Positions 3 to 58,456 of a DNA stretch of 64,000 nt are shown piece by piece. Every line of letters begins with the position of its first letter. Positions within the stretch are counted from its first letter, which is position 1. Made by a program: the position numbers and the translations under genes. Source of the DNA: an uncultured Rhizobiaceae bacterium (lineage in GTDB: Bacteria; Pseudomonadota; Alphaproteobacteria; Rhizobiales; Rhizobiaceae); NCBI GenBank assembly GCA_951813045.1, contig CATOTF010000002.1:2108001-2172000 (forward strand), read 5' to 3'. The notes under the pieces are model-generated. The model worked only from the letters and a program-made list of their open reading frames with translations, searched no databases and was not told the DNA's origin.

Positions 3-1088
3 GATGTTTCGGTCTGTGGCCAGACAATGCAAGGGGTTGGAATTCAAGAATGCCTTGACGCGCTGGTTCCCCATTGGAAACTTGCGCAAGACAGAGCAAA
101 AGAATTCAACGAGAAGTCAGGAACAGTAAGGCGCGGGGTCGGTGTGGCGTCTTGCTGGTACGGTTGTGGGAATACTGCCCTACCCAATCCGTCAACCATT
201 CGCTTGGGCATCACCACCGACGGGCACCTGAGGTTGCATCAGGGAGCTACAGATATCGGTCAAGGTTCGAATACCATTATAACTCAGATATGCGCGGACG
301 CGCTTGGCCTACCAATTGATAAATTTGAGCTGATTAGCCCAGATACCGCTCTTACTCCTGATTGCGGGAAAACATCAGCGTCCCGCCAAACGGTCGTTAC
401 GGGAAATGCCGCACAACTTGCCGGGCGTGGACTGCGCCACCGAATACTACGAACGAGCAATATGGGCCAAACTGCTGAAATTAAGCTCGAAGAAAACATG
501 CTGATTATTTCAGAAAATGGTATTACGCAGACCATCCACTTAGACGAGTTAGAGACCGACAAGCTTGGCTACGCTCTCTCATGCGAAGAGACATATGATC
601 CACCCACAGAACCGCTCGATGAAAACGGACAAGGCAAGCCCTACGCTGTCTATGGATATGGCGCCCAAATTGCTGAGGTTGAAGTTGATATGAAACTTGG
701 CACCGTAAAAGTCTGCAACATCGTCGCGGCCCATGACCTCGGCAAAGTAATCAACCCTCTGCTCGCAGAAGGCCAAATCGAAGGCGGCATTGCCCAGGGA
801 CTCGGTATGGCATTGATGGAAGAATATGTTCCCGGCCGAACAGAAAATCTGCACGATTATCTCATTCCCACTATTGGCGATATGCCGCCTGTCCAATCTA
901 TCCTTGTCGAAAAACCCGATCCGGAAGGGCCGATGGGCGCAAAGGGATTGGGTGAGCATGTCCTCATTCCAACAGCTCCCGCGATTCTCAATGCTATTCG
1001 TGATGCCAGTGGAGCGAAAATAACAAAGCTCCCTGCCCTTCCGCACCGCGTATTAGCGGCAATCAAGCAAGCAGAGGCGCAATCGTGA
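3..1088 (+). CDS. Xanthine dehydrogenase-family molybdopterin-binding subunit, C-terminal part
   Basis: The reading frame is open to the left edge, so the gene starts outside the window and about 362 C-terminal residues are seen. Such large subunits hold the molybdenum cofactor and hydroxylate an aromatic or N-heteroaromatic carbon with water as oxygen source. Visible family features are the cofactor segment HQGATDIGQGSNT, the segment GGIAQGLGMALMEEY, and GAKGLGEH near the end, whose Glu matches the catalytic base of xanthine dehydrogenase (GxGE). The stop overlaps the next start as GTGA, so the two genes are probably coupled. The substrate cannot be read from this part; xanthine, nicotinate or pterin types are all possible. 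Confidence 0.9.
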   Translation, partial: DVSVCGQTMQGVGIQECLDALVPHWKLAQDRAKEFNEKSGTVRRGVGVASCWYGCGNTALPNPSTIRLGITTDGHLRLHQGATDIGQGSNTIITQICADALGLPIDKFELISPDTALTPDCGKTSASRQTVVTGNAAQLAGRGLRHRILRTSNMGQTAEIKLEENMLIISENGITQTIHLDELETDKLGYALSCEETYDPPTEPLDENGQGKPYAVYGYGAQIAEVEVDMKLGTVKVCNIVAAHDLGKVINPLLAEGQIEGGIAQGLGMALMEEYVPGRTENLHDYLIPTIGDMPPVQSILVEKPDPEGPMGAKGLGEHVLIPTAPAILNAIRDASGAKITKLPALPHRVLAAIKQAEAQS

Positions 1089-2551
1089 CTCAACAAGCCG
1101 AGAAAGTCCGCTGCGATGCATGTCCGGTCATGTGTTACGTTGCCGACGGCAGAACTGGCGCTTGTGACCGCTATGCAAATCACAATGGCAAGATCATTCG
1201 TTGCGATCCGCTGACAATACTGAATAGTCGTCTTGCTACCGGAGGAGAAATTACCCCATTCCTGAAATCAGAATGGGATGGTAGTCTCGTGCGTGATGAT
1301 GAGGTTTTTGTCACCGCGAATGGCGCGGGCACAACATATCCTGACTACAAGCCCGCCCCTTTCATCGTCAGTCGGCAGGTTGATGGTGTTGACTTTGTAA
1401 CGGTCGTTACAGAGGCGATTTTCTCCTATTGCGGCGTAAAAGTTAAGATCGATACAGATCGACATCTGGGCCATGAAGGTGCTGTAGTGAGGGTGGGTGG
1501 CGAAGCAATCGGTCATGTTACCACCAGCGAATACGGCTCGCAGATGTTATCATTAGGCGGAGTAGATCATCTTACCGGCGGGTCAAAGGCGGAAGGCCGG
1601 ATAACCTGCGATTCACTCATGAAACTGTGTAACAAGGAACCGGTAGAGCTATCGATAGATGAAGGCTCCACAGTCGTTGTACAAGCCGGTCAAGCGCCAA
1701 TTGTTGACGGTCATGGAGAAGAACGAATGAGAGTCGGATGTGGATCCGCGACGATCGGAATGTTTGCCTCACAGTGGCTTGGTCTGGTTGACGAGGTTGT
1801 CGTGGTTGACGACCACATTACCGGTGTGGTTTCAGAACATCAGGCTGGTAAGGTATTGGACTGGCCCGACACCGGCGTTAAGATCCAGGGGCGTCGATCA
1901 ACCCCCGGTCGCTACTTTCAGGTTTCAGAACCGGGGCTCGGCTGGGGTGGGACAAAAGTTGATGACCCTCTTTCAATATTAGGGCCGTGGAACGCGAAAA
2001 AAGGTGCAAAACCTGGCCTTACTTTGCTCATGGTTTCGACGACCGGCGAGCAATACGCGTATTACGAACTAGACGACGATCTTATTCCTCAAAAGGGTGA
2101 GCTGCCAGACAGGCTCCGCCCCTCCGTAGAACTCATAGCTGAAAATTGTGAACCGGCATTGTGCACAGTTCTGTTTATGGGCGGTGCGGGTGGGTCATTG
2201 CGGTCAGGTGTCACCTCAAATCCAGTCAGACTCACGCGGTCTGTACAAGCCCTTAAAACAAATGTGACGTGCGGTGGGGCGCCACTCTACGTGTGGCCGG
2301 GTGGTGGAATAACCGTCATGGTTGACGTTACCCGGATGCCGGATAATTCCTTTGGTTATGTACCCACCCCTGCTCTGGTTGCCCCGTTGGAATTCACCGT
2401 TGCCAAAGAGGACTATAAGACACTGGGAGGTCACGACGCCGCAATCCGTACCATTGACGATATACTGGACTCCGGTGGTGAGTATGGAGACGACGTACGC
2501 GCAATTTCACCACCTGAAGGTAGTAATATGAAATCTCTTGAAGGTTCGTAG
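1085..2551 (+). CDS. 6-hydroxynicotinate reductase-like iron-sulfur protein
   Basis: This 488-residue protein starts with GTG overlapping the upstream stop. Near the N-terminus it has RCDACPVMCYVADGRTGACD, a CxxCxxxC motif plus a fourth Cys suited to a [4Fe-4S] cluster. The remainder is Gly-rich and includes a cluster-like GGAGGSLRSGV segment. It resembles proteins annotated as 6-hydroxynicotinate reductase, known from anaerobic nicotinate fermentation, where the enzyme reduces a hydroxylated pyridine ring with ferredoxin. That assignment is from remembered family resemblance. The place between a molybdenum hydroxylase and a UPF0280 gene agrees with a reductive step on a hydroxylated N-heterocycle, but the substrate here is inferred only. 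Confidence 0.65.
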   Translation: MTQQAEKVRCDACPVMCYVADGRTGACDRYANHNGKIIRCDPLTILNSRLATGGEITPFLKSEWDGSLVRDDEVFVTANGAGTTYPDYKPAPFIVSRQVDGVDFVTVVTEAIFSYCGVKVKIDTDRHLGHEGAVVRVGGEAIGHVTTSEYGSQMLSLGGVDHLTGGSKAEGRITCDSLMKLCNKEPVELSIDEGSTVVVQAGQAPIVDGHGEERMRVGCGSATIGMFASQWLGLVDEVVVVDDHITGVVSEHQAGKVLDWPDTGVKIQGRRSTPGRYFQVSEPGLGWGGTKVDDPLSILGPWNAKKGAKPGLTLLMVSTTGEQYAYYELDDDLIPQKGELPDRLRPSVELIAENCEPALCTVLFMGGAGGSLRSGVTSNPVRLTRSVQALKTNVTCGGAPLYVWPGGGITVMVDVTRMPDNSFGYVPTPALVAPLEFTVAKEDYKTLGGHDAAIRTIDDILDSGGEYGDDVRAISPPEGSNMKSLEGS

Positions 2552-3421
2552 ATGGACGGCGCGCAAGCAACACTCTTGGCCGACGGACGGCGGATACACC
2601 TGCATCATGGTCCCATTGACCTTATTATCGAGGCGTTTGGACCCGGTCGTAATCACGCCTATACGGTTGCAACCCGCAGATTTCAAACTGTGCTGGAAGA
2701 ACTCGTAACTGAGCTTCCACTTCTTCGGAACTCTGTGTGCCACGGCACAAGGTTTTCAGGTACAATTGCCAAAAGGATGCAACGGGCAGTAGAACCGTAT
2801 TTTGCTAATTTCGTAACACCGATGGCGGCGGTAGCTGGCGCGGTTGCGGATGAAATACTTCACCACATCAAACAGGTTCCAGATTTAGATAAAGCCTATG
2901 TCAATAATGGCGGTGATGTCGCGTTTTACTTAACCGAAGGTCAAACCATCAAAGCAGCCATGCCGGCATTGCCTCAGGGAATCATATCGCTCGGTAATTC
3001 CACGTTATGTCGAGGAGTGGCAACATCTGGATGGAGCGGACGTAGCTATTCACTTGGGATTGCAGATTCTGTTAGCGTGGTTGCAACAAATGCAGCTGCT
3101 GCGGATGCTGCAGCAACCATGATTGCCAATGCGGTAAATATCCCAGGCCATCCCAACATAAAGCGCACACCAGCAGATGAACTGTCACCTGATAGTGATC
3201 TGGGTGACATGGAGGTAACAACATACGTCGGCGATTTATCAATTGAAGAAATAGAAATTGCACTTGAAGACGGCGCTAAAACCGCTCAATCCTATGTGGA
3301 TGGTAATCTGATTGGTGGTGCAGTTTTACAACTCAAACATCTGAACCGACAGGTGGGCGCGTCAGCAATCCAAGCATCTATGACCAATTCAATTTCAAAA
3401 CGGGAACTTATCCATGCCTGA
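2552..3421 (+). CDS. UPF0280 family protein (ApbE-related)
   Basis: The start codon follows the previous stop directly. The 289-residue product has YVNNGGDVAFYL and LCRGVATSGWSGRSYSLG, which recall the NxGGD and ATSG elements of ApbE-type FMN transferases, then an Ala-rich helix (AAAADAAATMIANAV). UPF0280 proteins are regarded as ApbE relatives of unproven activity. No signal peptide is visible, so it should act in the cytoplasm, unlike lipoprotein ApbE. The tight linkage with the Fe-S reductase-like gene suggests it modifies or assembles that enzyme, which is inference. The last 8 bp overlap the next gene. Confidence 0.75.
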   Translation: MDGAQATLLADGRRIHLHHGPIDLIIEAFGPGRNHAYTVATRRFQTVLEELVTELPLLRNSVCHGTRFSGTIAKRMQRAVEPYFANFVTPMAAVAGAVADEILHHIKQVPDLDKAYVNNGGDVAFYLTEGQTIKAAMPALPQGIISLGNSTLCRGVATSGWSGRSYSLGIADSVSVVATNAAAADAAATMIANAVNIPGHPNIKRTPADELSPDSDLGDMEVTTYVGDLSIEEIEIALEDGAKTAQSYVDGNLIGGAVLQLKHLNRQVGASAIQASMTNSISKRELIHA

Positions 3422-3995
3422 ATATACGTTGCGCAAGACTATGATTTTCAATGAAGAAATACACCATGAAAACGGGCCTGCAAGTTCCAATCCGCGCCAA
3501 CGCGCTGCAATCATCGCAATCGTCAAAAACCCTTTCGCGGGTAATTATACCGCCAACCTTCAAAGCGCGATGGACGATCTAAAACCACTTGGCTTAATGA
3601 TGACTGATAAGCTGATCGACGCAATGGGCGGACTTGGGAGGATAGACGGGTATGGAAAAGCGGCGATTGCCGGTGAAAATGGAGAGCTGGAACACACTGC
3701 CCTTTGGCATGTACCGGGTGGATATTCCATGCGTGAACGCTTGGGTGAAGCAAAAGCTATTGTCCCTTCCACCATGAAGGTTGGCGGCACCGGCTGCCGT
3801 ATCGATATACCGCTTGGCCACATAAACGCAGCTTATGTACGCAGCCATTTTGATGCTATGGAAGTTGGCGTACCGGATGGTCCTCGTGCAAATGAGCTGT
3901 TGTTCGCATTAGCCATGACAAAGGGCCCGCGTATACACAACCGCATGGGTGGCCTGACGATGGAAGAGGTCGAGGGAGTTGACGGGTTGCGATAG
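3414..3995 (+). CDS. Amino acid synthesis family protein (DUF1185)
   Basis: This 193-residue protein starts 8 bp inside the preceding gene, so it is translationally coupled. It has the family pattern of DUF1185: an N-terminal RKTMIFNEEIHHENG stretch, AIVKNPFAGNY, and a conserved GYGKAAIAGENGELEH segment followed by PGGYSMRERLGEAKAIVPS. The name 'amino acid synthesis' is historical and no reaction is established that I know of. Members recur in catabolic clusters with molybdenum hydroxylases and ABC importers. A role in the same heterocycle pathway is inferred from the operon alone. Confidence 0.8.
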   Translation: MPEYTLRKTMIFNEEIHHENGPASSNPRQRAAIIAIVKNPFAGNYTANLQSAMDDLKPLGLMMTDKLIDAMGGLGRIDGYGKAAIAGENGELEHTALWHVPGGYSMRERLGEAKAIVPSTMKVGGTGCRIDIPLGHINAAYVRSHFDAMEVGVPDGPRANELLFALAMTKGPRIHNRMGGLTMEEVEGVDGLR

Positions 3996-4009: not shown

Positions 4010-4291
4010 ATGCAGGAGACAACTACAGTTCAGCTTACAGTCCTTGGGGACTTTCGCAGCGGTGAATATACCGACTGGGTTAGACACCGCGCAAACATTC
4101 TGGATTTAACCGGTTGGATCAACACGCGTGACAACAATTTTGTGGAGATCGAAATATGCGGCAACCCGATTCTCGTTGAAGCTTTTGAATTAGCCTGCAG
4201 CATTGGCCCCTATAGTGTTACAGTGAGAGATATTCAGGTGAGAACAGTATCGAATGGTCCATATTCATGCAGCGCCTTTGAAGTTCGATGA
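4010..4291 (+). CDS. Acylphosphatase-like protein lacking catalytic residues
   Basis: The 93-residue product aligns by eye with acylphosphatases: TVQLTVLGDFRSG at the start, WVRHRANILDLTGWI in the middle, then EIEICGN and a GPYSVTVRDIQV strand. In the family the phosphate loop reads GxVQGVGFR and ends in the catalytic Arg; here it is GDFRSGEYTDW and the Arg position is Thr. The catalytic Asn after GW is also replaced (GWINT). The fold is therefore probably kept but hydrolysis of acyl phosphates is unlikely. It lies 14 bp after the DUF1185 gene and probably belongs to the same transcript. No strong ribosome-binding site is seen. Confidence 0.6.
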   Translation: MQETTTVQLTVLGDFRSGEYTDWVRHRANILDLTGWINTRDNNFVEIEICGNPILVEAFELACSIGPYSVTVRDIQVRTVSNGPYSCSAFEVR

Positions 4292-4439
4292 GGCTATCTT
4301 CGCAATGGAATAATTGGACCTTGATAACCTCAATAAATATTTCTCACCTGAAATGTATGCAAGCGACAAACGGTCTGCTTAGATTAAAAAGTAGAAATTT
4401 TAAATCGGGAAGAGCTGGCAATCGCGAGCTCAGTTTTTG

Positions 4440-5126
4440 ATGGTCACAGAGCCGGTCGGACTTTCAAATAATCTACCCATCAAAAGGGTCATGCCTGCGC
4501 GTGTCGGTGACACGGATATCGCAGTCTGGCGGAGCGCATCGGGTGTCGTTTCAGCTTGGTTAAATCGATGCCCGCACAGAGGAATGCGTCTTTCACATGG
4601 GTTTGTGCGCGGTGAATCATTGGCTTGTCTTTATCATGGTTGGCAATATGGCTGTGACAACAAATGCAAATATATTCCAGCCCACCCGGCGTTGGAACCG
4701 CCAACGACTATTCAAACAATGGCATACACAGTCGTCGAAAAACATGGCGTGTTATGGGTATCGTTAGACGGAACCCCAGAAATCCCGGCGCTGTTTGAAA
4801 AGCTTCAACCCGTGAGAAGCATTTCTTTCAATTGTTCAAATGAGGATGTTTTAAGCGCGTTGGCTGAAACAACTTTAACATGTGATGACGGTCAGGTCCT
4901 GTCGGCTTCGGATATGCAAAGCCAAAACATATTAATTTTGGACAATCCACAGAACAAACCAAAGCTCGCAGTCCTGTTTCAGAAATCATCAGCAGCAAAC
5001 GTGACTGCTCACCTATTGGCTGACAACAGTTGGTCAATTGATGGATTAATACGAATTTCCCGATGGTGTGAACTCGTTCGGCGACGTGCCGAAATAAAAA
5101 TCCCTGATAATCGAAGGAATTTATAA
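4440..5126 (+). CDS. Stand-alone Rieske [2Fe-2S] protein, cluster subunit of a split oxygenase
   Basis: This protein of about 228 residues carries the Rieske motif in CPHRGMRLSHGF and CLYHGWQYG (CxH and CxxH ligands), followed by IPAHPALEPP and VVEKHGVLWVSL, the order found in the N-terminal domain of oxygenase alpha subunits. The mononuclear-iron domain is missing; the last 100 residues match nothing I recognise. The start could be TTG at 4437 or ATG at 4440; ATG was chosen. The stop codon shares one base with the start of the next gene, which encodes the missing catalytic domain. It probably delivers electrons to that partner. No dedicated reductase gene is seen in the window. Confidence 0.8.
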   Translation: MVTEPVGLSNNLPIKRVMPARVGDTDIAVWRSASGVVSAWLNRCPHRGMRLSHGFVRGESLACLYHGWQYGCDNKCKYIPAHPALEPPTTIQTMAYTVVEKHGVLWVSLDGTPEIPALFEKLQPVRSISFNCSNEDVLSALAETTLTCDDGQVLSASDMQSQNILILDNPQNKPKLAVLFQKSSAANVTAHLLADNSWSIDGLIRISRWCELVRRRAEIKIPDNRRNL

Positions 5127-5974
5127 TGGCAGGGTTGGAGCGCGCAAAAGAAGACTGGTATCCAATTGCGATTGCCGGAAGCACGGTCGACGGGGAACAA
5201 TTGGACACCAGTCTACTTGGTATAAATATCACGCTTCATGGCGATAAAGATCGTGAAATTTCTGTCACTGCTGATGGCAATAATCTGCCGGTTCAAACGC
5301 GGTATGATCATGTGTGGACGACATTTAGCGAGAACCCACGCCCTCTATTCGATATTCCTGAAGCAGATGAAGCCGGAAGGGTTTTGGTTCCATGTGGCGT
5401 GGTGCGGGTTAAGTGCTCACCATTACGCGCGGTGGAAAACTTCCTCGACATAGCGCATTTTCCCTTCGTGCACACTGATGTGCTTGGGGCCGAGCCTCAC
5501 ACGGAAGTCGAGCCCTATGATGTGAAAATCGACGAGACCATAGACGAAGTTATTGCCACGAAAGTGAAGTTCTTTCAGCCCCAAGCCGCAAAATCAGCGG
5601 GTGATGGTATTGTGACAGATTATGTCTATCGGGTGGCTGCCCCCATGGTTTCGATATTGTACAAAACATGCCCCCCGAAACCTGGTTCCCAAGACGTGAT
5701 AACACTGTTCGTCCAGCCCTTGGATGAGGAAACCTGCAACGTTTGGCCTTGGATGGCGCTCTACGATTATGAAAACTCCATGGCCGACATGATCAGTTTT
5801 CAGCAAATGATATTTGTCCAGGACCGCTCTATTCTTGAAAATCAATTACCGCGCAAATTACCTCTCGACCCGAAGATGGAGATACCAACCCGCGCTGACA
5901 TGACATCAATTGCCTACCGCCGTTGGTTGAAACGCGGTGGCGCAATTTATGGTGCTCTCACGGAGGCCGTATGA
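5126..5974 (+). CDS. Rieske-oxygenase catalytic domain protein without Rieske cluster
   Basis: The 282-residue product opens like a vanillate-demethylase-type alpha subunit (DWYPIAIAGS, then LLGINITL), but the roughly 45 residues that should hold CPHRG and CxYHGW are absent. It resumes with a pre-catalytic stretch and the mononuclear-iron motif ENFLDIAHFPFVH (ligands by family: two His and a later Asp; MIFVQDRSILE is a candidate for the last). The cluster is supplied by the gene just upstream, overlapping by one base. Function is predicted as hydroxylation or demethylation of a small, possibly N-heterocyclic substrate; Rieske oxygenases acting on purines (HpxD type) are known. The stop overlaps the next start as ATGA. 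Confidence 0.8.
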   Translation: MAGLERAKEDWYPIAIAGSTVDGEQLDTSLLGINITLHGDKDREISVTADGNNLPVQTRYDHVWTTFSENPRPLFDIPEADEAGRVLVPCGVVRVKCSPLRAVENFLDIAHFPFVHTDVLGAEPHTEVEPYDVKIDETIDEVIATKVKFFQPQAAKSAGDGIVTDYVYRVAAPMVSILYKTCPPKPGSQDVITLFVQPLDEETCNVWPWMALYDYENSMADMISFQQMIFVQDRSILENQLPRKLPLDPKMEIPTRADMTSIAYRRWLKRGGAIYGALTEAV

Positions 5975-6624
5975 GTTTCAAGCTTTATAATTATGTTTTA
6001 TCTGGAAATTGCTACAAAGTCAGACTTTTTGCGGGTGTGCTTGGTATCAATTACGATTCAATTGCAGTCGATTTTCATCCAGGACAAGAGCATAAATCTG
6101 ACGATCTCATGCAGTTAAACCCAGCTGGCACACTACCCATCATGATCGCAGATGATTTGGTGCTGACGGAAACATCTGCAATGCTAATTTGGATGGCGTC
6201 AAAATTTGATTCCGACAACACCTGGTGGCCAGCCACCGACGCCGCTAAAACAGCTGCCATTGTGCAGTGGCTAGGCTTTTCTTCTGATCTAACATCTACA
6301 ATCGGTGAAGCACGGTTACACACAATGCTTAATCGTGATGTTAAAATAGAAAAAGCATTAGCTGATGGAATTGTGGCCTTACGCCGGATAGAAGCTCAAC
6401 TGACAGAACAGGGATTGAGAGGCGGCGCATGGTTAGTTGGTGAAAGCCCAACAATTGCAGACATTGCCTGTTTCCCATATGTCGCGCTGGCACCGGATGC
6501 CGGTCTCGAACATGATGATTATCCTGCCATTAGAAATTGGCTTTACGCGATCAGAAGCCTATCCGGATTCGTGACAATGCCCGGAATTCACGAAGTCCAC
6601 GAACTACGAAATGAAGGCGACTAA
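5971..6624 (+). CDS. Glutathione S-transferase family protein
   Basis: I chose the ATG at 5971, which overlaps the preceding stop as ATGA, giving 217 residues, the usual size. The N-terminal thioredoxin-like domain shows FKLYNYVLSGNCYKVRLF with a Ser/Cys pair at the usual active site, and the glutathione-binding NPAGTLPIMIADDLVLTETS with its cis-Pro and the Glu-Thr/Ser pair. The C-terminal helical domain has ESPTIADIACFPYV, the conserved N-capping box. In a catabolic operon such enzymes often isomerise, dehalogenate or detoxify intermediates. The particular reaction cannot be told here. Confidence 0.85.
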   Translation: MSFKLYNYVLSGNCYKVRLFAGVLGINYDSIAVDFHPGQEHKSDDLMQLNPAGTLPIMIADDLVLTETSAMLIWMASKFDSDNTWWPATDAAKTAAIVQWLGFSSDLTSTIGEARLHTMLNRDVKIEKALADGIVALRRIEAQLTEQGLRGGAWLVGESPTIADIACFPYVALAPDAGLEHDDYPAIRNWLYAIRSLSGFVTMPGIHEVHELRNEGD

Positions 6625-6626
6625 AT

Positions 6627-8024
6627 TTGATTGAGAAGAAAAAACACACGTTGTTTAAGGCATGCGACGCGATTGTGACCTGCGATGATCAAGGCACAAT
6701 CCACCGCAATTGCGACTTGTTGGTTTCCGGCAATCGCATCGAAAAAGTTGCCAAACTCATCACAGAACAAGACATTCCTTCCGACACTGAAATCATCGAC
6801 GCAACTGGGCATTTCATTTATCCGGGATTGATCAATACCCATCATCATTTCTTCCAGTGTTTTGTTCGTAACAACGCCGATTTGGATTGGACAAAACTGA
6901 CTGTAATCGAATGGCTTGATCGCATTTACCCCATATTCTCACGATTAGACGAAGAGTGTTTTTACCACTCCTCGCTGGTTGCGATGGGAGAGCTCATAAA
7001 ACACGGATGTACCACGGCATTTGATCATCAATATAATTTTCCCCGTCATGCAGGAAAAAATATCGTGGATCGCCAGTTTCAGGCGGCCACGAAGCTTGGA
7101 ATGCGTTTTCATGCGGGCCGGGGTGGGAATACACTACCAAAATCGGAAGGAAGCACCATTCCCGATGAAATGCGGGAAGGCACCGACGAATTCATAAATG
7201 ATTGCGCCCGTCTAATTGAAACATACCATGACGCAAACCCGTTGAGCATGCGCCAGGTCGCGATCGCGCCCTGCCAACCGGTCAACTCCTACAAAGAGAC
7301 ATTTATTGAATCGATAGCACTGGCGCGCGATAAAGGTGTCCTGCTCCATTCCCATGTTGGTGAAGGCGAAAGCGAAGTCATAAAACAGCGTACCGGAACG
7401 CGTACCGTCGATTGGTGCGAAGATATTGGATTTGTTGGTGAAGATGTCTGGCTCGCACACTGTTGGGAATTGACATCAGACGAGATAGGCAAACTTGCCA
7501 AAACCCGCACCGGCGTGTCCCACTGTCCAGAGCCTGTTTATCTGGTAGGTGCGGAGGTTACCCCCATCCCCGAGATGGAAGCGCAAGGGGTGAGGCTCAG
7601 TCTTGGAGCGGATGGAGCAGCTTCCAATGACAATTCAAATCTCATGCAATGCATTCACAGCGCCTACATGCTGCAATCCCTTGTTGCATCGTCCAGAAAC
7701 CACCCAGTTCCCGATCCCAAACGTTTCTTACAATATGCAACACGAGGCGGAGCCGATATTTTAAGACGCCCTGATCTGGGCCAGTTGAAACAAGGCCTTG
7801 CCGCTGACCTGTTTATGATTGACACCAGAAAAATCGAATTTGTCGGGACCTTACATGATCCAGAAAGCCTGATTGCTAAAGTAGGCATCGCTGGAAACGT
7901 TGACCTGACCATGATTAACGGACAGGTTGTCTGGAGGGACGGGGAATTCCCGGGGATAGATGAACAAGAACTGGTGGCGCAAGCACAATCTCACGTCAAT
8001 CGGGTTGTTTATAATGTAGGCTGA
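6627..8024 (+). CDS. COG0402 amidohydrolase, 8-oxoguanine/isoxanthopterin deaminase-like
   Basis: The 465-residue enzyme starts with TTG two bases after the GST stop. Metal and catalytic residues of the subgroup-III amidohydrolases are visible: NTHHHFFQCF (HxH), LLHSHVGEGESE, LAHCWEL and LGADGAASNDNSNL (Asp). The HHHFFQ and DGAASNDNSNL forms match members annotated as 8-oxoguanine deaminase, isoxanthopterin deaminase or hydroxyatrazine hydrolase. It should hydrolyse an amino group from a purine- or pterin-like ring in the cytoplasm. Placement just before a BMP-type ABC importer is common for the 8-oxoguanine deaminase branch. Which ring is used cannot be decided from sequence alone. Confidence 0.75.
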   Translation: MIEKKKHTLFKACDAIVTCDDQGTIHRNCDLLVSGNRIEKVAKLITEQDIPSDTEIIDATGHFIYPGLINTHHHFFQCFVRNNADLDWTKLTVIEWLDRIYPIFSRLDEECFYHSSLVAMGELIKHGCTTAFDHQYNFPRHAGKNIVDRQFQAATKLGMRFHAGRGGNTLPKSEGSTIPDEMREGTDEFINDCARLIETYHDANPLSMRQVAIAPCQPVNSYKETFIESIALARDKGVLLHSHVGEGESEVIKQRTGTRTVDWCEDIGFVGEDVWLAHCWELTSDEIGKLAKTRTGVSHCPEPVYLVGAEVTPIPEMEAQGVRLSLGADGAASNDNSNLMQCIHSAYMLQSLVASSRNHPVPDPKRFLQYATRGGADILRRPDLGQLKQGLAADLFMIDTRKIEFVGTLHDPESLIAKVGIAGNVDLTMINGQVVWRDGEFPGIDEQELVAQAQSHVNRVVYNVG

Positions 8025-8052: not shown

Positions 8053-9141
8053 ATGAAATCACTTGTAAAAAAGCTAACAAAATTGTCACTTGCGTTGACG
8101 GTTGTAGGAGCATTTGCACATTCAACCGCGAATGCAGAACCGCTTGAAATCGGTCTTTTAACACCATCACCTCTTGCAGATGTGGGTTGGTCAAAAGCAC
8201 TCGCCGATGGTTTGGACAAGGTTAAGGCGAAGCACGGAGACAACGTCAAAATCAATTTAGTCGAAAATATCCAAGAAGGCCCAGACGCTGAGCGGATCAT
8301 GAATAAGATGGTTGGCGACGGAAATAAGTTTCTTGTGCTTGGATCGTTTGGCTACATGAACGGCGGCCTGAAGCTGGCAAAGCGAAATCCAAATCTCTCT
8401 TTTGTCCACGCATCCGGCTATAAAGTTGCCAAGAACTTCTCACCGTTTACTGCGAAGTATTTTGAAGGCGCCTATCTTATGGGTATGGCAGCGGCTGAAT
8501 TGACGAAAACTAAGAAGCTCGGAGTTGTGTCCGCGTTCGCTATTCCGGAGCTTATTTCGACAATCAATGGATTTACCCTTGGCGCACGGAGTATTGATCC
8601 TGAAATCACTGTAGATGTTGTGTGGATCAACTCCTGGTTTGACCCCGCAAAAGCACAAGATTCCGCTAAAGCACTTATCGCAGGTGGCTCAGATGTATTG
8701 TTCTCAAATGCTCAGGACACACCTTCTGTTGTAGCAGTGGCCGAAAAAGCCGGAGTTTATGTTTATAATCTCAATAGCTCCATGAAGGAATATGCTCCCA
8801 AGAAATACCTTGGTGTTGTAAAAACAGATTGGGCACCATTCTTCATGGCTTCTGTTGAAGCACATATGGCCGGTAAGTTTGATGGCAAAAACCAGTGGTT
8901 GGGTATGAAGGAAAATACCGTCGTTGTGGAAGACTGGAGCTCAGACATCAGTCCAGACATGATGGCCAAGATCAAGGCTACTGAGGCTGCAATCGCGTCT
9001 GGCGAAAAACACGTCTATGACGGTCCCATCGTCAATCAGGAAGGTAAGGAAGTCATTCCCGCCGGCCAACGACTTGAAGATGGTGCCATACTCGGCATGA
9101 ATTGGCATGTTCAAGGTGTGAACTCACCACTGCCCAAATAA
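8053..9141 (+). CDS. BMP-family ABC transporter substrate-binding protein
   Basis: The ATG at 8053 follows a GGGAGGA ribosome-binding site. Residues 1-28 form a Sec signal peptide (KKLTKLSLALTVVGAFAHS, cleavage near ANA). The mature domain has the basic-membrane-protein fold seen in IGLLTPSPLADVGWSKAL, FVHASGYK and YFEGAYLMGMAAAELTKTKKLG. Family members bind nucleosides, purines or related rings, which fits the adjoining deaminase. At 362 residues it has normal length. The ATPase and two permease genes follow on the same strand after a hairpin. Confidence 0.9.
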   Translation: MKSLVKKLTKLSLALTVVGAFAHSTANAEPLEIGLLTPSPLADVGWSKALADGLDKVKAKHGDNVKINLVENIQEGPDAERIMNKMVGDGNKFLVLGSFGYMNGGLKLAKRNPNLSFVHASGYKVAKNFSPFTAKYFEGAYLMGMAAAELTKTKKLGVVSAFAIPELISTINGFTLGARSIDPEITVDVVWINSWFDPAKAQDSAKALIAGGSDVLFSNAQDTPSVVAVAEKAGVYVYNLNSSMKEYAPKKYLGVVKTDWAPFFMASVEAHMAGKFDGKNQWLGMKENTVVVEDWSSDISPDMMAKIKATEAAIASGEKHVYDGPIVNQEGKEVIPAGQRLEDGAILGMNWHVQGVNSPLPK

Positions 9142-9206: not shown

Positions 9207-10778
9207 ATGTCAGATTCATCAACAACGCCGCTGCTTTCTCTCCGGAAAGTGTCAAAACGATACCCTGCCCTGATCGCCAATGATCAAATTGATCTCGACG
9301 TAATGCCGGGTTCAATACACGCTGTTTTGGGTGAAAACGGAGCGGGTAAATCGACATTAATGAAACTCATATACGGCGTGATTGATGCTGATGGAGGCGA
9401 ATTTATCTGGGACGGTGAACGAGTCGAACTACGGAACACAGCCACGGCAAGGCAACTGGGAATTGGCATGGTATTCCAGCATTTCTCCCTGTTCGAAACC
9501 CTTAGCGTTGTTGAAAACATCTCCCTGACAATCTCCGGCACCCGCAAGGAACTGGCTAAACGTGTGCGTGAATTGGGCGCAACTTTCCATCTGGAAGTTG
9601 ACCCCGAAGCCTCAGTTCATTCGTTGTCCGTCGGTGAACGCCAGCGCGTCGAAATTATTCGTTGCCTGCTACAGGATCTCAAGCTGCTGATCCTTGATGA
9701 GCCAACATCCGTATTGCCGCCACAGCATGTACGCTCACTTTTCGATGCCTTGAGAAAACTTCAGTCAAATGGCGTTTCTATTCTGTATATTTCACACAAG
9801 CTCGAAGAAATTCGTGAGTTGTGCGACACCGCTACAATTTTGCGCGGCGGAAAAGTTACAGGCATTGTCAATCCTAATGAAAAAACGGCACGAGAATTAG
9901 CTACTTTGATGATCGGTCGCAACATCCCACAAATTGAGGCACGGGCTCATAAACGGGATACAGATACACCGATTTTGGAAATTACGCATCTCAATGCGAA
10001 AAACCCGGATCCGTTCGGAACCCATCTTTCTGATATCAATTTGTCGGTTTACGGAGGCGAGATCGTGGGTATCGCTGGTGTGTCTGGCAATGGGCAACAG
10101 GAACTTGCCCGCATCATTTCTGGTGAAGACCTAAGCCATCGTCTTTCGGACGCGACAATAAAGATGCTGGATAGGCCAGCCGCTGCGTTAAGTGTTACCG
10201 ACCGCCGAAATCTCGGATTTTCGTTTGTCCCGGAGGAAAGATTGGGACGTGGCGCTATACCACCCATGACTTTATCTCAAAACACATTGCTAACCGCCTA
10301 TGAAAAAGGCCTCCTGAACAACGGATTTATTCGCAAGGATAAGCTCGCGGAATATGCTTCACAATGCATAGAAGATTTTGACGTTCGATGCTCTGGAATT
10401 GATGCGAATGCAAATTCCCTGTCCGGCGGAAATCTACAAAAGTTCATCGTAGGCCGCGAACTTATGTTGAAGCCAAAACTGCTATTTGTTTCACAGCCAA
10501 CTTGGGGAGTAGATGTTGGAGCCGCCGTCGCAATACGCCAGCGATTGCTAGACTTAAGAGACGAAGGCGTGGCAATTTTGGTCATATCAGAGGAATTGGA
10601 AGAATTGTTTGAAATCTGTGATCGGCTCCATGTCATACGGGATGGAACCCTGTCACCGCCTCTCATTTCTTCCAAGGTGACCCCCGACGATATCGGCGAG
10701 TACATGATTGGTACCGCCAATTCTTCTGACAACCTTTCTCCTGGCGTGAAAGAAAGCACCTATGCACATCAAGTTTGA
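9207..10778 (+). CDS. ABC transporter ATP-binding protein (duplicated ATPase, nucleoside type)
   Basis: This 523-residue protein contains two fused ATPase domains. The first has Walker A GENGAGKST, signature LSVGERQRVEI and Walker B LLILDEPTS. The second, from about residue 260, has a degenerate Walker A (GVSGNGQQEL), a conserved LSGGNLQKFIVGRE signature and an altered Walker B (LLFVSQPTWGVD), the pattern known for sugar/nucleoside type ATPases. It energises uptake with the two permeases, and its 3' end overlaps the first permease gene by 17 bp. The altered second site is typical of the family and not a sign of decay. Confidence 0.9.
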   Translation: MSDSSTTPLLSLRKVSKRYPALIANDQIDLDVMPGSIHAVLGENGAGKSTLMKLIYGVIDADGGEFIWDGERVELRNTATARQLGIGMVFQHFSLFETLSVVENISLTISGTRKELAKRVRELGATFHLEVDPEASVHSLSVGERQRVEIIRCLLQDLKLLILDEPTSVLPPQHVRSLFDALRKLQSNGVSILYISHKLEEIRELCDTATILRGGKVTGIVNPNEKTARELATLMIGRNIPQIEARAHKRDTDTPILEITHLNAKNPDPFGTHLSDINLSVYGGEIVGIAGVSGNGQQELARIISGEDLSHRLSDATIKMLDRPAAALSVTDRRNLGFSFVPEERLGRGAIPPMTLSQNTLLTAYEKGLLNNGFIRKDKLAEYASQCIEDFDVRCSGIDANANSLSGGNLQKFIVGRELMLKPKLLFVSQPTWGVDVGAAVAIRQRLLDLRDEGVAILVISEELEELFEICDRLHVIRDGTLSPPLISSKVTPDDIGEYMIGTANSSDNLSPGVKESTYAHQV

Positions 10779-11853
10779 ACGCCGGGTCGAATACTCCCGA
10801 AAAATTCTGATAAGCGTCCCCGTCATTACCATTGCATTATCCATTTTGATCAGCAGCGCCCTGCTGCTTATTCTTGGAAAATCTGTGCCGTTGACAATGT
10901 ATTCGTTCTTTATCGCACCTTTTGAATCCTTTTATTCGATAACGGAGATTTTTCTTAAATTCGGCCCGCTGCTCCTGATTGCGCAGGCGCTCGCAATCGG
11001 ATTCCGTGCCAAAGTTTGGAATATCGGTGCCGAGGGTCAGATGATTATGGGGGCGATTGCCGCCAGCGCTGTTCCTGTATATTTCGTAGATAGCACTTCG
11101 ATCTTCCTGCTTCCCGCTATGTTGGTACTTGGTGCAGCCGGTGGCATGGGATGGGCAGCAATAGCCGCATTTTTGCGCACTCGCTTTAACGCAAACGAAA
11201 TCCTGGTCACATTAATGCTAACGTCGATTGCACTGCAGGTATTGTACTATCTGTTGTTGGGTCCGTGGAAAGACCCTCAAGGCTTCAATTTTCCTCAAAC
11301 CGTGTTGTTTCAGGATGAGGCGCTGTTCAGCCCGCTATTTCAGGCAACGAGACTGAATACTTCAGTTCTAATACCTATTCTTTTCACCATAGGCGCCTGG
11401 GTATTTATGGAAAAAAGATTCGGTGGATTCAAACTTCAGGTCGGTGGTCTTGCTCCAAATGCTGCTATCTACGCCGGGTTTAGCGCTAAAGGGGCCGTAT
11501 GGCGTAGCTTGCTTATTGCTGGATTCGCTGCAGGGCTTGCTGGTATGAGTGAAGTCGCTGGGCCGATTGCGCAACTGCAACGCTCTATTACATCAGGATA
11601 TGGATATTCAGCCATTATCGTTGCCTATCTGGGTGCGTTACATCCAATTGGCATCATTTTTGCCGCATTCTTTTTGGCTGTAATCCAGATCGGAGGGGAC
11701 GTCGCGCTTGTTTCCGCGGGAGTACCGATCAGCGCGGTGCACGTATTTCAAGGCCTGTTGCTGGTGTTCTACCTCGCAACGTACACATTCGTGAATTATC
11801 GCCTTCGAATACTCAGACCAGGTAAGTCGCTACCGGTTGGAGCAACCTCATGA
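10762..11853 (+). CDS. ABC transporter permease (nucleoside/purine type, first)
   Basis: The 363-residue membrane protein has about nine or ten hydrophobic segments and the family core LLIAQALAIGFRAKVWNIGAEGQMIMGAIAA (residues about 70-100), where NIGAEGQ is characteristic of BranchedAA/BMP-type permeases. It begins inside the ATPase gene and its stop overlaps the next start by 4 bp, so the importer is made from one transcript. It forms the inner-membrane channel with the following permease. Confidence 0.9.
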   Translation: MHIKFERRVEYSRKILISVPVITIALSILISSALLLILGKSVPLTMYSFFIAPFESFYSITEIFLKFGPLLLIAQALAIGFRAKVWNIGAEGQMIMGAIAASAVPVYFVDSTSIFLLPAMLVLGAAGGMGWAAIAAFLRTRFNANEILVTLMLTSIALQVLYYLLLGPWKDPQGFNFPQTVLFQDEALFSPLFQATRLNTSVLIPILFTIGAWVFMEKRFGGFKLQVGGLAPNAAIYAGFSAKGAVWRSLLIAGFAAGLAGMSEVAGPIAQLQRSITSGYGYSAIIVAYLGALHPIGIIFAAFFLAVIQIGGDVALVSAGVPISAVHVFQGLLLVFYLATYTFVNYRLRILRPGKSLPVGATS

Positions 11854-12776
11854 CCACTATCGAGTTCTTTCTCGCAGGCACGATGAGCGCAGCCACCGTA
11901 TTTCTGCTTGCTGCCCTTGGCGAATTGGTGGCGGAGAAGTCCGGCATGCTAAATCTGGGTGTAGAAGGTATGATGGCGGTATCAGCGGCCGTCGGATTCG
12001 TTGTAACATATGAAACTGGCAGTCATATTGTGGGATTTACAGTTGCTGGCATATCCGGAGTATTAGTCTCGCTGATATACGCTGGCGTTGCCATTACGTT
12101 TTTGGCCAATCAGGTCGCAACCGGTCTAGCGGTTGGAATACTCGGACTTGGCCTTTCTGCGCTTATTGGCCGCCAACACGAAAGCCTGACTGTCGAGGCT
12201 GCTGGTGGGATCTATATTCCCATATTGAGCGACATTCCGTTGTTGGGCCCCGCATTTTTTCAACATAACATCGTTGTGTATCTTACTCTCGCAATCGCAG
12301 TGGCAATTGGGTATTGCCTCAAACATACGCGTCTTGGTCTTGCAATCCGCTCCGTTGGAGAAAATCCCAATGCGGCGCAGGCATTGGGTTATTCCGTGCA
12401 CCTCATCCGATATGGTGCAGTTGCATTTGGCGGTCTACTCGCGGGATTCGCAGGGGCATATGCTTCTACTATCTACACCCCATTATGGGCCGATGGCATG
12501 ATTGCCGGACGTGGCTGGATTGCAGTTGCACTCGTGGTGTTTGGTACATGGAAAACAGGGCGAATTATTTTGGGTGCCTACCTGTTTGGAATGGTGTCCC
12601 TTGGAGAATTGATCGCACAGTCTCTGGGAGCTTCCATCCCATCTCAATTACTGTCGAGCATGCCCTACATTGTGACAATTGTCGTGCTGGCGATCATTTC
12701 CACAAACGCTGCACGATTAAAGCTCCATGCACCATTTGCATTAGGTGAGAGTTTCGACGGTTCAGAGTCAAAGTGA
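11850..12776 (+). CDS. ABC transporter permease (nucleoside/purine type, second)
   Basis: The 308-residue product starts with an ATGA overlap on the first permease. It shows the family motif EKSGMLNLGVEGMMAVSAAVG near residue 30 and then eight or so membrane segments; IRSVGENPNAAQALGY in the middle is the cytoplasmic loop that contacts the ATPase. It is the partner channel subunit of the importer. This is the last gene of the plus-strand catabolic block; 43 bp separate it from the convergent marR-type gene. Confidence 0.9.
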   Translation: MTTIEFFLAGTMSAATVFLLAALGELVAEKSGMLNLGVEGMMAVSAAVGFVVTYETGSHIVGFTVAGISGVLVSLIYAGVAITFLANQVATGLAVGILGLGLSALIGRQHESLTVEAAGGIYIPILSDIPLLGPAFFQHNIVVYLTLAIAVAIGYCLKHTRLGLAIRSVGENPNAAQALGYSVHLIRYGAVAFGGLLAGFAGAYASTIYTPLWADGMIAGRGWIAVALVVFGTWKTGRIILGAYLFGMVSLGELIAQSLGASIPSQLLSSMPYIVTIVVLAIISTNAARLKLHAPFALGESFDGSESK

Positions 12777-56074: not shown

Positions 56075-56183
56075 TGTGAATCCCGGAGACAAAATGACCA
56101 CAGAAATGGTTGGGTAATCTGACCGTCGCGGAGTAAAATTCCGCACTCTGACACCTTGTGCTTGTGAGTATTAGGTGGGGAAG

Positions 56184-57683
56184 ATGTATTCTGTGGATTT
56201 GTATAGTCGGGTGCGTCGAGCGTGCCATGTGGATGGGAAGAACAATAGCGAGGTGGCCCGTTTGTTCGGGATTGATCGCAAAACCGTGGCGAAGATCCTG
56301 AAGCACTCGGTTCCGCCCGGTTATCAAAGAACGACCGCGCCTGTTCGCCCGAAGTTGGATCCGTTTGTTGGGATAATTGATCAGATCCTGAAAGACGACA
56401 AAAAGGTCATCAAAAAGCAACGGCACACAGCCAAGCGTATTCATGCGCGGTTACGGGATGAGCACGGGTTCACTGGCGGGATCACCATTGTCACTGATTA
56501 TGTGCGTGAGAAGCAAAGACGAACCCAGGAGGTGTTTGTTCCTCTGGTTCACGCGCCCGGCCATGCTCAGGTCGATTTTGGTGAGACGTTCGGCGTGATC
56601 GACGGTGTCGAACGCAAGCTGCATTACATCGCTATATCGTTGCCGCATTCGGATGCGTTCTTCATGAAGGCGTATCCGGCGGAAACAACAGAAGCCTTCT
56701 GTGACGGTCACAATGCTGCGTTTGCTTTCTTCGGCGGTGTGCCGTTGTCGATGCTCTACGACAACACCGTGATTGCAGTTGCAAAGATCCTGGGCGGTGG
56801 CAAACGGATACGCACGAGAACTTTCTCAGAGCTACAATCGCACTATCTGTTTGAGGATAAGTTTGGTCGCCCTGGCAAAGGCAATGATAAAGGGAATGTC
56901 GAAGGCGTCATTGGTTACGGTCGCAGGAACTTTCTCATCCCAGCCCCACGGTTCGACAGCTTTGATGCCTTGAACGCCTGGTTGGAAGAATGCTGCCTGA
57001 AGCGTCAGGATGATGTTGTTCGCGGACATGGTGAGAGTATTGGTGAACGATTGCTGAGAGACCTGGACGCGCTGATGGCATTGCCCCCAACGCCATACGA
57101 CGCGTGTGAAAAGTTTAGCACGCGGGCAACGTCAATCTCGATGATCCGCTACCGCAATAATGATTACTCCGTTCCTGTCGCCTTTGCCCATCATGAGGTT
57201 CAGGTTCGCGGTTACATCCATGAGGTTGTGATTGGCAGTGGAACCGAGATTATTGCCCGCCATCGTCGGTCTTATGAGAAGGCAGACATGATCTTCGACC
57301 CGCTTCACTATCTGCCCTTGCTGGAACAAAAGGTAGGTGCTCTCGATCAGGCGGCACCATTGCAAGGCTGGGGTTTACCCGATGCATTTGCGATCCTTCA
57401 TCGTTTATTAGAAGCCCGCATGGGTAAGGCGGGAAAACGCGAGTATGTTCAGATCCTGCGTCTGCTGGAAACTTTTGAGCTGGAGCACGTTCACGCCGCA
57501 ATCCAACAAGCTTTGGATCTGGGTGCCATTGGCTATGATGCGATCAAGCACCTTATTCTGTGCCGGATCGAGCGGCGACCGCCCAGGCTTGATCTCGACA
57601 TCTACCCCTATTTGCCCAAAGCGGTGGTCGAGACGACAAAACCTGCCAGCTATGCCGTGCTGTTGTCGGAGGCGGCAGCATGA
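56184..57683 (+). CDS. istA: IS21-family transposase IstA
   Basis: The ATG at 56184 with AGGTGGGG ahead is preferred to GTG at 56175; the product has 499 residues. An HTH head (SEVARLFGIDRKTVAKIL) precedes the DDE domain with HAQVDFGETFGVIDG (Asp), SMLYDNTVIA (Asp) and KGNVEGVIGYGRRNF (Glu). All catalytic positions are present. IstA cuts and joins the element ends. It overlaps istB by 4 bp. Confidence 0.95.
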   Translation: MYSVDLYSRVRRACHVDGKNNSEVARLFGIDRKTVAKILKHSVPPGYQRTTAPVRPKLDPFVGIIDQILKDDKKVIKKQRHTAKRIHARLRDEHGFTGGITIVTDYVREKQRRTQEVFVPLVHAPGHAQVDFGETFGVIDGVERKLHYIAISLPHSDAFFMKAYPAETTEAFCDGHNAAFAFFGGVPLSMLYDNTVIAVAKILGGGKRIRTRTFSELQSHYLFEDKFGRPGKGNDKGNVEGVIGYGRRNFLIPAPRFDSFDALNAWLEECCLKRQDDVVRGHGESIGERLLRDLDALMALPPTPYDACEKFSTRATSISMIRYRNNDYSVPVAFAHHEVQVRGYIHEVVIGSGTEIIARHRRSYEKADMIFDPLHYLPLLEQKVGALDQAAPLQGWGLPDAFAILHRLLEARMGKAGKREYVQILRLLETFELEHVHAAIQQALDLGAIGYDAIKHLILCRIERRPPRLDLDIYPYLPKAVVETTKPASYAVLLSEAAA

Positions 57684-58456
57684 ACGACACTGTTACCGAT
57701 ACACCGCAAGTTCTACTCAAACATCATCTGACCAAACTTCGGCTGCCAACCTTCCAGAGTGAATATACCAAACAGGCCCAACAATGTGCCGCTGAGAATA
57801 AGGATCATGTCCAATATCTCCTGCGGTTATGTGAGTTGGAGCTGATTGAACGTGAGCGCCGAATGGTGGAGCGACGCATCAAAGCTGCGAAGTTCCCGGC
57901 AACCAAGAGCCTCGACAGCTTTGACTTCAAAACGATCCCGTCAGTGAACAAGGTGCTCGTGATGGAACTGGCCCGTTGCGAGTACGCTGCGAAACGCCAA
58001 AACATCATCGCGTTAGGACCAAGTGGAACCGGCAAAACCCATGTTGCCCTCGGCCTTGGACTGGCTGCCTGCCAAAAGGGGATGAAAGTCCGCTTCACCA
58101 CGGCTGCTGCACTGGTTCATGAGATGATCGAGGCCGTTGATGAACGTCGCTTGCAACGGCATCAAAAACAACTGGCAGCTCAAGACCTGCTGATCATTGA
58201 CGAACTGGGCTTCGTCCCTCTCTCCAAAACCGGGGCGGAGTTGCTGTTCGAAGTAATCAGCCAACGGTATGAACGCGGTTCCATCATCATCACATCCAAT
58301 CTACCATTCGACGAATGGACAGAGGTCTTCGGATCAGAACGCCTAACGGGCGCAATACTCGACCGGCTGACACACCACGTCCACATCCTGGAGATGAATG
58401 GTGAAAGCTACAGGTTGCACCAGAGCCGAAAACAAAAATCTGTTCAAATCAACTGA
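57680..58456 (+). CDS. istB: IS21-family ATP-binding helper protein IstB
   Basis: The 258-residue AAA+ protein has Walker A in LGPSGTGKTHVALGLGLA, Walker B in LLIIDELGFVPLSKTGA and a sensor stretch SIIITSNLPFDEW. It assists IstA in target choice. It is translated from ATGA overlapping the istA stop and looks intact. Confidence 0.95.
   Translation: MNDTVTDTPQVLLKHHLTKLRLPTFQSEYTKQAQQCAAENKDHVQYLLRLCELELIERERRMVERRIKAAKFPATKSLDSFDFKTIPSVNKVLVMELARCEYAAKRQNIIALGPSGTGKTHVALGLGLAACQKGMKVRFTTAAALVHEMIEAVDERRLQRHQKQLAAQDLLIIDELGFVPLSKTGAELLFEVISQRYERGSIIITSNLPFDEWTEVFGSERLTGAILDRLTHHVHILEMNGESYRLHQSRKQKSVQIN

Follow-up and report, generated by a model that had tools for sequence, protein, structure and literature searches.

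A probable two-protein Rieske oxygenase of the NdmCDE type with a free-standing cluster protein in an uncultured Rhizobiaceae bacterium

Gene organisation of the locus

In Rieske oxygenases, the iron of a subunit receives an electron from the cluster of the subunit next to it. Within the window (the whole 64,000-nucleotide stretch of DNA that was analysed, from an uncultured Rhizobiaceae bacterium), these two centres appear to be divided between the products of two adjoining genes, here named R and C, which raises the question of whether the two proteins make up one oxygenase and how such an enzyme would work. The genes of the locus are as follows.

4010..4291, + strand: acylphosphatase-like small protein of 93 aa, companion of free-standing R (Pfam PF00708, E 3e-7)
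4440..5126, + strand: R, free-standing Rieske [2Fe-2S] protein of 228 aa counted from the ATG (Pfam Rieske, E 3e-18)
5126..5974, + strand: C, NdmC-like non-heme iron oxygenase without the cluster segment, 282 aa (VanA_C, E 7e-22)
5971..6624, + strand: E, GST-like, NdmE-like protein of 217 aa (Pfam GST_N, E 2e-10; GST_C_2, E 9e-8)
6627..8024, + strand: amidohydrolase, relative of 8-oxoguanine deaminase (NCBIfam PRK08203, E 1e-119)
8053..9141, + strand: BMP-family substrate-binding protein, presumed nucleoside/purine uptake (ORF; homologues so annotated in named records)
9207..10778, + strand: ABC transporter ATPase of the uptake system with the BMP protein (ORF; homologues so annotated)
10762..11853, + strand: ABC transporter permease 1 (ORF; homologues so annotated)
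11850..12776, + strand: ABC transporter permease 2 (ORF; homologues so annotated)

The ORF list places the start of R at the ATG at 4440 and its stop (TAA) at 5124–5126, with an alternative upstream start (TTG at 4437) given by the extension of the ORF tool, and the start of C at the ATG at 5126 with its stop (TGA) at 5972–5974. R and C overlap by one base, and C and E by four (ATGA). The gene coordinates and the one-base overlap of R and C in a first-pass annotation of this DNA agreed with this ORF check.

The Rieske protein and its probable remnant domain

At E ≤ 0.01 the only Pfam domain of R was Rieske (residues 7–86, E 3e-18), with the ligand motifs CPHRG and CLYHGW present as the first-pass annotation had described them. 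The ligands C44, H46, C63 and H66 were invariant in the 53 rows of an alignment (A1) made up of 36 R proteins, 16 of 24 NdmD-type proteins and the window protein. R was also described in that annotation as having no mononuclear-iron domain. The iron ligands are indeed absent, and DxxHxxxxH was found in no R or NdmD-type tail examined, but for the final ~110 residues a catalytic-type fold of reduced size is predicted. The protein thus consists of a Rieske domain (residues ~1–115) followed by a shrunken catalytic-type domain without iron ligands (residues ~120–228).

R could be aligned over its full length with the N-termini of NdmD-type proteins, covering the first ~230 residues of NdmD with no reductase. 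By profile comparison, the tail of R matched the NdmD segment between the Rieske domain and the reductase (hhalign 96%, 107 columns), while the same tail gave 4.6% against the catalytic domain of C and 0.2% against intact oxygenases; NdmD-type tails gave 73% across 42 columns against the catalytic domain of C. The AlphaFold model of R (pLDDT 92.4) found its closest solved structures among oxygenase chains such as SxtT, with TMq values of 0.69–0.78 and superposition rmsd of 4.4–8.0 Å for the 24 listed SxtT/GxtA chains. With about 120 of the 228 residues, the Rieske part by itself would by arithmetic reach a TMq of only ~0.53, so that the tail contributes to the fold match. Mainly on the basis of the predicted fold, R may be read as a Rieske-oxygenase fold in which the catalytic domain has shrunk and the iron ligands have been lost. 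It does not fit the description of a Rieske-type ferredoxin, a small single-domain protein, as it carries an oxygenase-type second domain. A search for related loci with R as query returned one weak relative.

The Rieske-less catalytic protein

Pfam matches of C at E ≤ 0.01 were to VanA_C (E 7e-22) and KshA_C (1e-4, just below its cut-off), and no match to a Rieske domain was obtained at this threshold. The iron motif ENFLDIAHFPFVH and the missing cluster had both been recorded by the first-pass annotation. Residues D108, H111, H116 and D233 were invariant in 59 aligned rows (A2, comprising 58 of 71 C references and the window protein, the 13 omitted being near-duplicates and the short L092), and H111, H116 and D233 are presumed to be the iron ligands with D108 as the presumed bridging aspartate. 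Of the further alignments, A3 and A4 were made without 7 and 8 plasmid rows, respectively, and A5 without 4. The Rieske motif was absent from all 80 ORFs matching C above 150 bits. The model of C (pLDDT 89.4) gave TMq values of 0.81–0.88 to the same 24 SxtT/GxtA chains as R.

When R and C were aligned jointly with four intact oxygenases, C was seen to lack the cluster segment, and R the helix with the iron ligands as well as most of the catalytic core. We read these complementary losses as the reciprocal decay of one ancestral fold.

Comparison with NdmCDE and single-chain oxygenases

The first-pass annotation presumed that known oxygenases carry both parts in one alpha chain. This is incorrect, as NdmCDE of the caffeine degrader Pseudomonas putida CBB5 has already been published as a split system, in which NdmC is without a Rieske cluster, NdmD joins a Rieske domain to a reductase in one chain and NdmE resembles GSTs (PMC4408171). 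According to a review (PMC10380055), the three proteins form a stable 3:3:3 complex with a cluster–iron distance of 12.1 Å between neighbouring subunits, and NdmC alone goes into inclusion bodies. This fused relative acts on 7-methylxanthine as an N7-demethylase (PMC4408171, PMC10380055). A 2025 review gives ~12 Å as the general cluster–iron distance and α3α′3 for NdmA/NdmB, with NdmC going unmentioned in the available sections (PMC12445004).

C belongs to the same Rieske-less family as the catalytic proteins of NdmCDE and of the plasmid relatives L127 and L128 (43–48% identity to the latter two), and it is 47.9% identical to a Paraburkholderia caffeinilytica plasmid protein. That plasmid carries C, a fused NdmD-type protein, GST and formaldehyde-oxidation genes, adjoining two full Rieske oxygenases. 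As in NdmCDE, the catalytic subunit has a mononuclear iron site and no Rieske cluster, a GST-like partner is encoded alongside (a GST-like ORF was present in 40 of 40 R loci), and the cluster would be supplied in trans by the same module of Rieske and shrunken domains. Unlike in NdmCDE, this module is free-standing, stopping after 228 aa where NdmD continues into an FNR-type reductase, and it has a small acylphosphatase-like companion, with a deaminase-like gene and a BMP-type transporter as neighbours in the window. R and C probably operate in the manner of NdmCDE, but one of its defining features, the Rieske–reductase fusion, is missing.

Taken together, R and C have the same two-domain fold and the same kinds of cluster and iron ligand motifs as the single-chain SxtT/GxtA, NdmA/NdmB and VanA-type enzymes. 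These carry both domains in one chain, as the definition of a single-chain alpha subunit demands, whereas R and C each hold a single functional domain together with what is left of the other one. Among the intact oxygenases found, L157–L162 and L175 are the closest relatives (36–40% identity to C and nearest to it in the C tree); they likewise adjoin BMP-family genes but have both domains in one protein, unlike R and C.

It is considered probable that R and C constitute a real, conserved two-protein oxygenase, a variant of the NdmCDE type with the cluster module as a protein of its own. In the literature searched, which included the available parts of PMC4408171, PMC10380055, PMC12445004 and PMC8055839 and lay outside the original NdmCDE paper, no description was found of a free-standing split Rieske donor, its acylphosphatase-like companion, the reciprocal decay of R and C, or the shared 62-genome distribution, two-C/one-R genomes and R genomes without a Fer2 plus NAD-binding frame reported below.

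Distribution of R and C

The main sample of 397 genomes of the order was searched with C and, independently, with an R-type profile (at most 7 candidates scored per genome); R regions were taken from the C searches, the profile search being the one independent of C. The search with C matched 81 genomes at E ≤ 1e-3, many of the weaker matches being intact oxygenases. With the R-type profile, 62 genomes each had a single match above 200 bits, the next match anywhere scoring 138 bits; the next four (129–138 bits) covered the Rieske part alone, and those in G144 and G079 were seen to be intact oxygenases. Comparison of the lists showed that C and the R-type module occupy the same 62 genomes, of which, by locus and frame, 41 have free-standing R, 21 the fused NdmD-type form and none both. 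A full oxygenase labelled R by script (L080:12301-13398) was left out of the R counts. A search for other genomes with the same pair had been proposed in the first-pass annotation, which held that a cluster protein always found with an unrelated partner would speak against its reading; the pair with free-standing R was found in 41 of 397 genomes, and the R-type module keeps to the genomes that have C.

In 15 of 40 R loci, C does not lie directly behind R on the same strand; some of these genes are divergent neighbours (e.g., L076, L107–L109) and others are kilobases apart. An oxygenase of two proteins with a dedicated cluster protein, one of the readings offered at first pass, is best supported, with the amendment that the partners need not adjoin.

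In a phylum-wide sample, 23 of 398 genomes matched C at E ≤ 1e-40, 8 of the 23 being intact oxygenases. A search of 72,556 plasmid records gave 310 with a match to C; in 124 the identity was 60–80%, and 128 of the 310 came from Rhizobium. R, C, GST and BMP-transporter genes were found on four plasmids with annotation, namely p42c of R. etli, pRL10 of R. johnstonii and one each of Qingshengfaniella and R. tumorigenes; in the last of these, C adjoins guanine deaminase several kilobases from R. The fused arrangement occurs on plasmids of P. caffeinilytica, P. putida and S. meliloti, the first two confirmed by domains.

The acylphosphatase-like companion

The catalytic residues of acylphosphatase are an Arg and an Asn. 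By profile the small protein encoded at 4010–4291 belongs with the acylphosphatases (PF00708), but it differs from them in having an invariant Cys in place of an invariant Arg or Asn, neither of which was found across 29 aligned rows. The invariant residues of this alignment were G13, G51, L55, E60, C63, G66 and P67, with Cys63 lying within an ExxCxxGP motif (ELACSIGP in the window).

A profile of the small protein (at most 13 candidates scored per genome) matched 242 of the 397 genomes at E ≤ 1e-3. In 40 genomes the match reached at least 67.6 bits, the next scoring 55.0 bits, and we take the weaker matches to be ordinary acylphosphatases. The protein accompanies R in 40 of the 41 R genomes (the exception being G226) and the fused form in none of 21, with a Fisher p of 1e-15 that overstates independence since the genomes are related. 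In G010 the small protein and R lie on different contigs. By blastp it was detected in 34 of 40 R loci and in none of 27 fused loci; two of the loci missed (L072, L101) were positive by profile, L170 had a weak match (34 bits), in L082 the gene lay elsewhere, and L173 and L177 had none. The tight association with R points to an undescribed assembly or docking factor.

Gene context and possible substrate

The deaminase of the window scored 399.9 bits against 8-oxoguanine deaminase, below the curated cut-off of 532. When ten neighbouring deaminases were chosen, five passed the cut-off for guanine deaminase and two that for 8-oxoguanine deaminase, while three passed neither (L066 and L126, below the 8-oxoguanine deaminase cut-off, and L096, with none). 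Of the 40 R loci and the 27 fused loci, 22 and 2, respectively, had deaminase-like ORFs, and 26 and 11 had BMP genes, so that BMP genes are not specific to the split form; both sets of counts are lower bounds, as the slices were at most 20 kb. No formaldehyde-detoxifying gene was seen by eye adjoining the window genes. The nearby guanine and 8-oxoguanine deaminases and the nucleoside-type transporters suggest an N-methylpurine demethylase. Given this context and the 7-methylxanthine activity of NdmCDE, our best guess for the substrate, by analogy, is an N-methylpurine, perhaps 7-methylguanine. The context thus suggests an uncharacterised route for methylated purines, common on Rhizobium plasmids.

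Upstream of the locus (window 27-3995 and L012:15484-17999) lies a cluster of genes for an xdh-like molybdenum hydroxylase, a 488-aa protein that presumably resembles 6-hydroxynicotinate reductase, a UPF0280-type protein and an AA_synth protein. This cluster may represent a separate N-heterocycle pathway.

Alternative explanations

The upstream genes also bear on another possibility, namely that R and C do form a split oxygenase but have an N-heterocycle other than a purine as substrate, as the molybdenum-hydroxylase-like, hydroxynicotinate-reductase-like, UPF0280 and AA_synth genes stand directly before it in the window. However, none of the other loci scanned has the last three, and only 4 of the 40 R loci have xdh-like ORFs, so that the split system is not defined by these genes; instead, it is purine deaminases that recur with R far more than with the fused form, and the fused relative has 7-methylxanthine as its substrate (PMC4408171, PMC10380055). 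A non-purine substrate is accordingly thought unlikely. As for the architecture, R and C, which overlap by one base, do together follow the order of parts in a single alpha chain, as they might if an ordinary Rieske oxygenase had decayed or been frameshifted, or if the assembly were wrong. Such an origin is scarcely credible, as both proteins are conserved over 41 of 397 genomes with ligands invariant in the aligned rows, are frequently non-tandem, and each retain remnants of the other's domain, which is not expected from one broken gene. This conservation of R and C, with their invariant ligands, rules out chance neighbours, a pseudogene or an artefact.

The small, free-standing R could also be a diffusing, Rieske ferredoxin-like carrier serving several oxygenases, and not a fixed subunit with C, in keeping with the 15 of 40 loci where C is not directly downstream and with seven genomes where one R occurs with two C. 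Against this, the top solved-structure matches of R are oxygenase chains such as SxtT, its second domain is common to NdmD, none of the 397 genomes has an R-type module but no C, and NdmCDE forms a stable complex (PMC10380055). A diffusing carrier is for these reasons held to be improbable, and R as a dedicated partner of C remains the preferred reading.

Proposed mechanism

From the computed anatomy, homology, complementary losses, predicted folds and co-occurrence of R and C, we infer the following scheme for their complex, electron path, reaction and substrate and for the role of the fourth protein. R would supply the Rieske cluster on an oxygenase-like scaffold with a shrunken catalytic domain that has lost its iron, and C, with the cluster segment lost, would retain the mononuclear iron site and bridging aspartate. 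The two would assemble with the GST-like E as structural partner, placing the cluster of R ~12 Å from the iron of C, the spacing that ordinary Rieske oxygenases have between adjoining subunits. Electrons would pass from a separate, non-dedicated donor to R and on to the iron of C, where they would drive the O2-dependent removal of an N-methyl group, as formaldehyde, from a methylated purine taken up by the cell (most likely a methylguanine), and the adjacent deaminase would act on the base after demethylation. The acylphosphatase-like protein would be a fourth component tied to free-standing R, perhaps in assembly or electron-donor docking. With the metal centres on separate proteins, each with a remnant of the other's domain, cluster and iron could be prepared, mutated and mixed independently, which would make inter-subunit electron transfer directly testable.

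Electron source and possible sharing of the cluster donor

As no reductase was found near the R and C genes of the window, the electron source for R is a guess. With three own-genome reductases as queries, a separate reductase-like ORF was found near R in 3 of 40 R loci (L080, L092 and L177). In 11 of 26 chosen R genomes, among them G134 with a completeness of 78%, nothing matched the L092 reductase at E ≤ 1e-20. A survey by family of ten of the eleven showed Fer2 and NAD_binding_1 in one frame in G347, G244, G383, G155, G021 and G067, which indicates other reductase types there. No frame joining Fer2 and NAD-binding domains was found in G225, G130, G099 and G145, the last being less certain with a 524-aa frame that has a weak Fer2 match; PF00175 scores NdmD-type proteins weakly (22–29 bits), so that some reductases could be missed in this survey. 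A housekeeping ferredoxin route would be the likeliest donor in these four genomes. The best of the reductase candidates found elsewhere in the window genome was 34% identical to a P. putida NdmD-type reductase and lies beside another oxygenase, and nothing was found to link any own-genome candidate to R.

In the 26 R genomes where all candidates were scored, exactly one R above 200 bits was present in each, with the next match at 102 bits. The seven genomes with two C-type proteins and one R, all among these 26, were G099, G347, G278, G293, G334, G237 and G738. In five of the seven, the second C has neither R nor GST in its 20-kb slice (L096, L097, L098, L100 and L122) and adjoins xanthine-dehydrogenase-like ORFs. 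S. meliloti pSymA (L130:8926-12558) encodes two Rieske-less C proteins and one NdmD-type protein, from which it may be that donor sharing also occurs in the fused arrangement. One donor serving two catalytic proteins would show a modular electron supply. It is tentatively proposed, as a possibility that we would put somewhat short of even, that a general cassette for cluster supply, made up of R, the acylphosphatase-like protein and the GST-like E, serves more than one Rieske-less catalytic protein and is fed by housekeeping ferredoxins. The cassette would descend from a duplicated Rieske oxygenase through reciprocal decay and have been free-standing before the NdmD fusion.

Evolution of the split and fused forms

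Quick trees were constructed, with long branches flagged. The C tree (80 C and 14 intact oxygenases) separates split from fused C by one change, with a support of 53 for the fused group, and the R/NdmD tree likewise has one change between free-standing and fused forms, with a fused-group support of 97. L173, a locus from a different family of the phylum that has C with a free-standing R, is the first to diverge in the C tree (support 90) and takes no firm position in the R/NdmD tree. Its place in the C tree hints that the free-standing state may predate the NdmD-type fusion.

Other features of the window and its genome

A full-length Rieske oxygenase is encoded ~7 kb upstream of the window (L012:9816-10886, − strand), surrounded, as judged by eye, by genes for a branched-chain amino-acid-type transporter and hydantoinase subunits. 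A 664-aa ORF at L014:4599-6593 (− strand; genome C2:2704599-2706593) has a Rieske match near its N-terminus followed by what appears by eye to be a thiamine-diphosphate enzyme, an unusual domain pairing. An IstA/IstB-like transposase pair was also noted by eye at 56175-58456 of the window and at L014:15818-18000, with translated ORFs that look identical.
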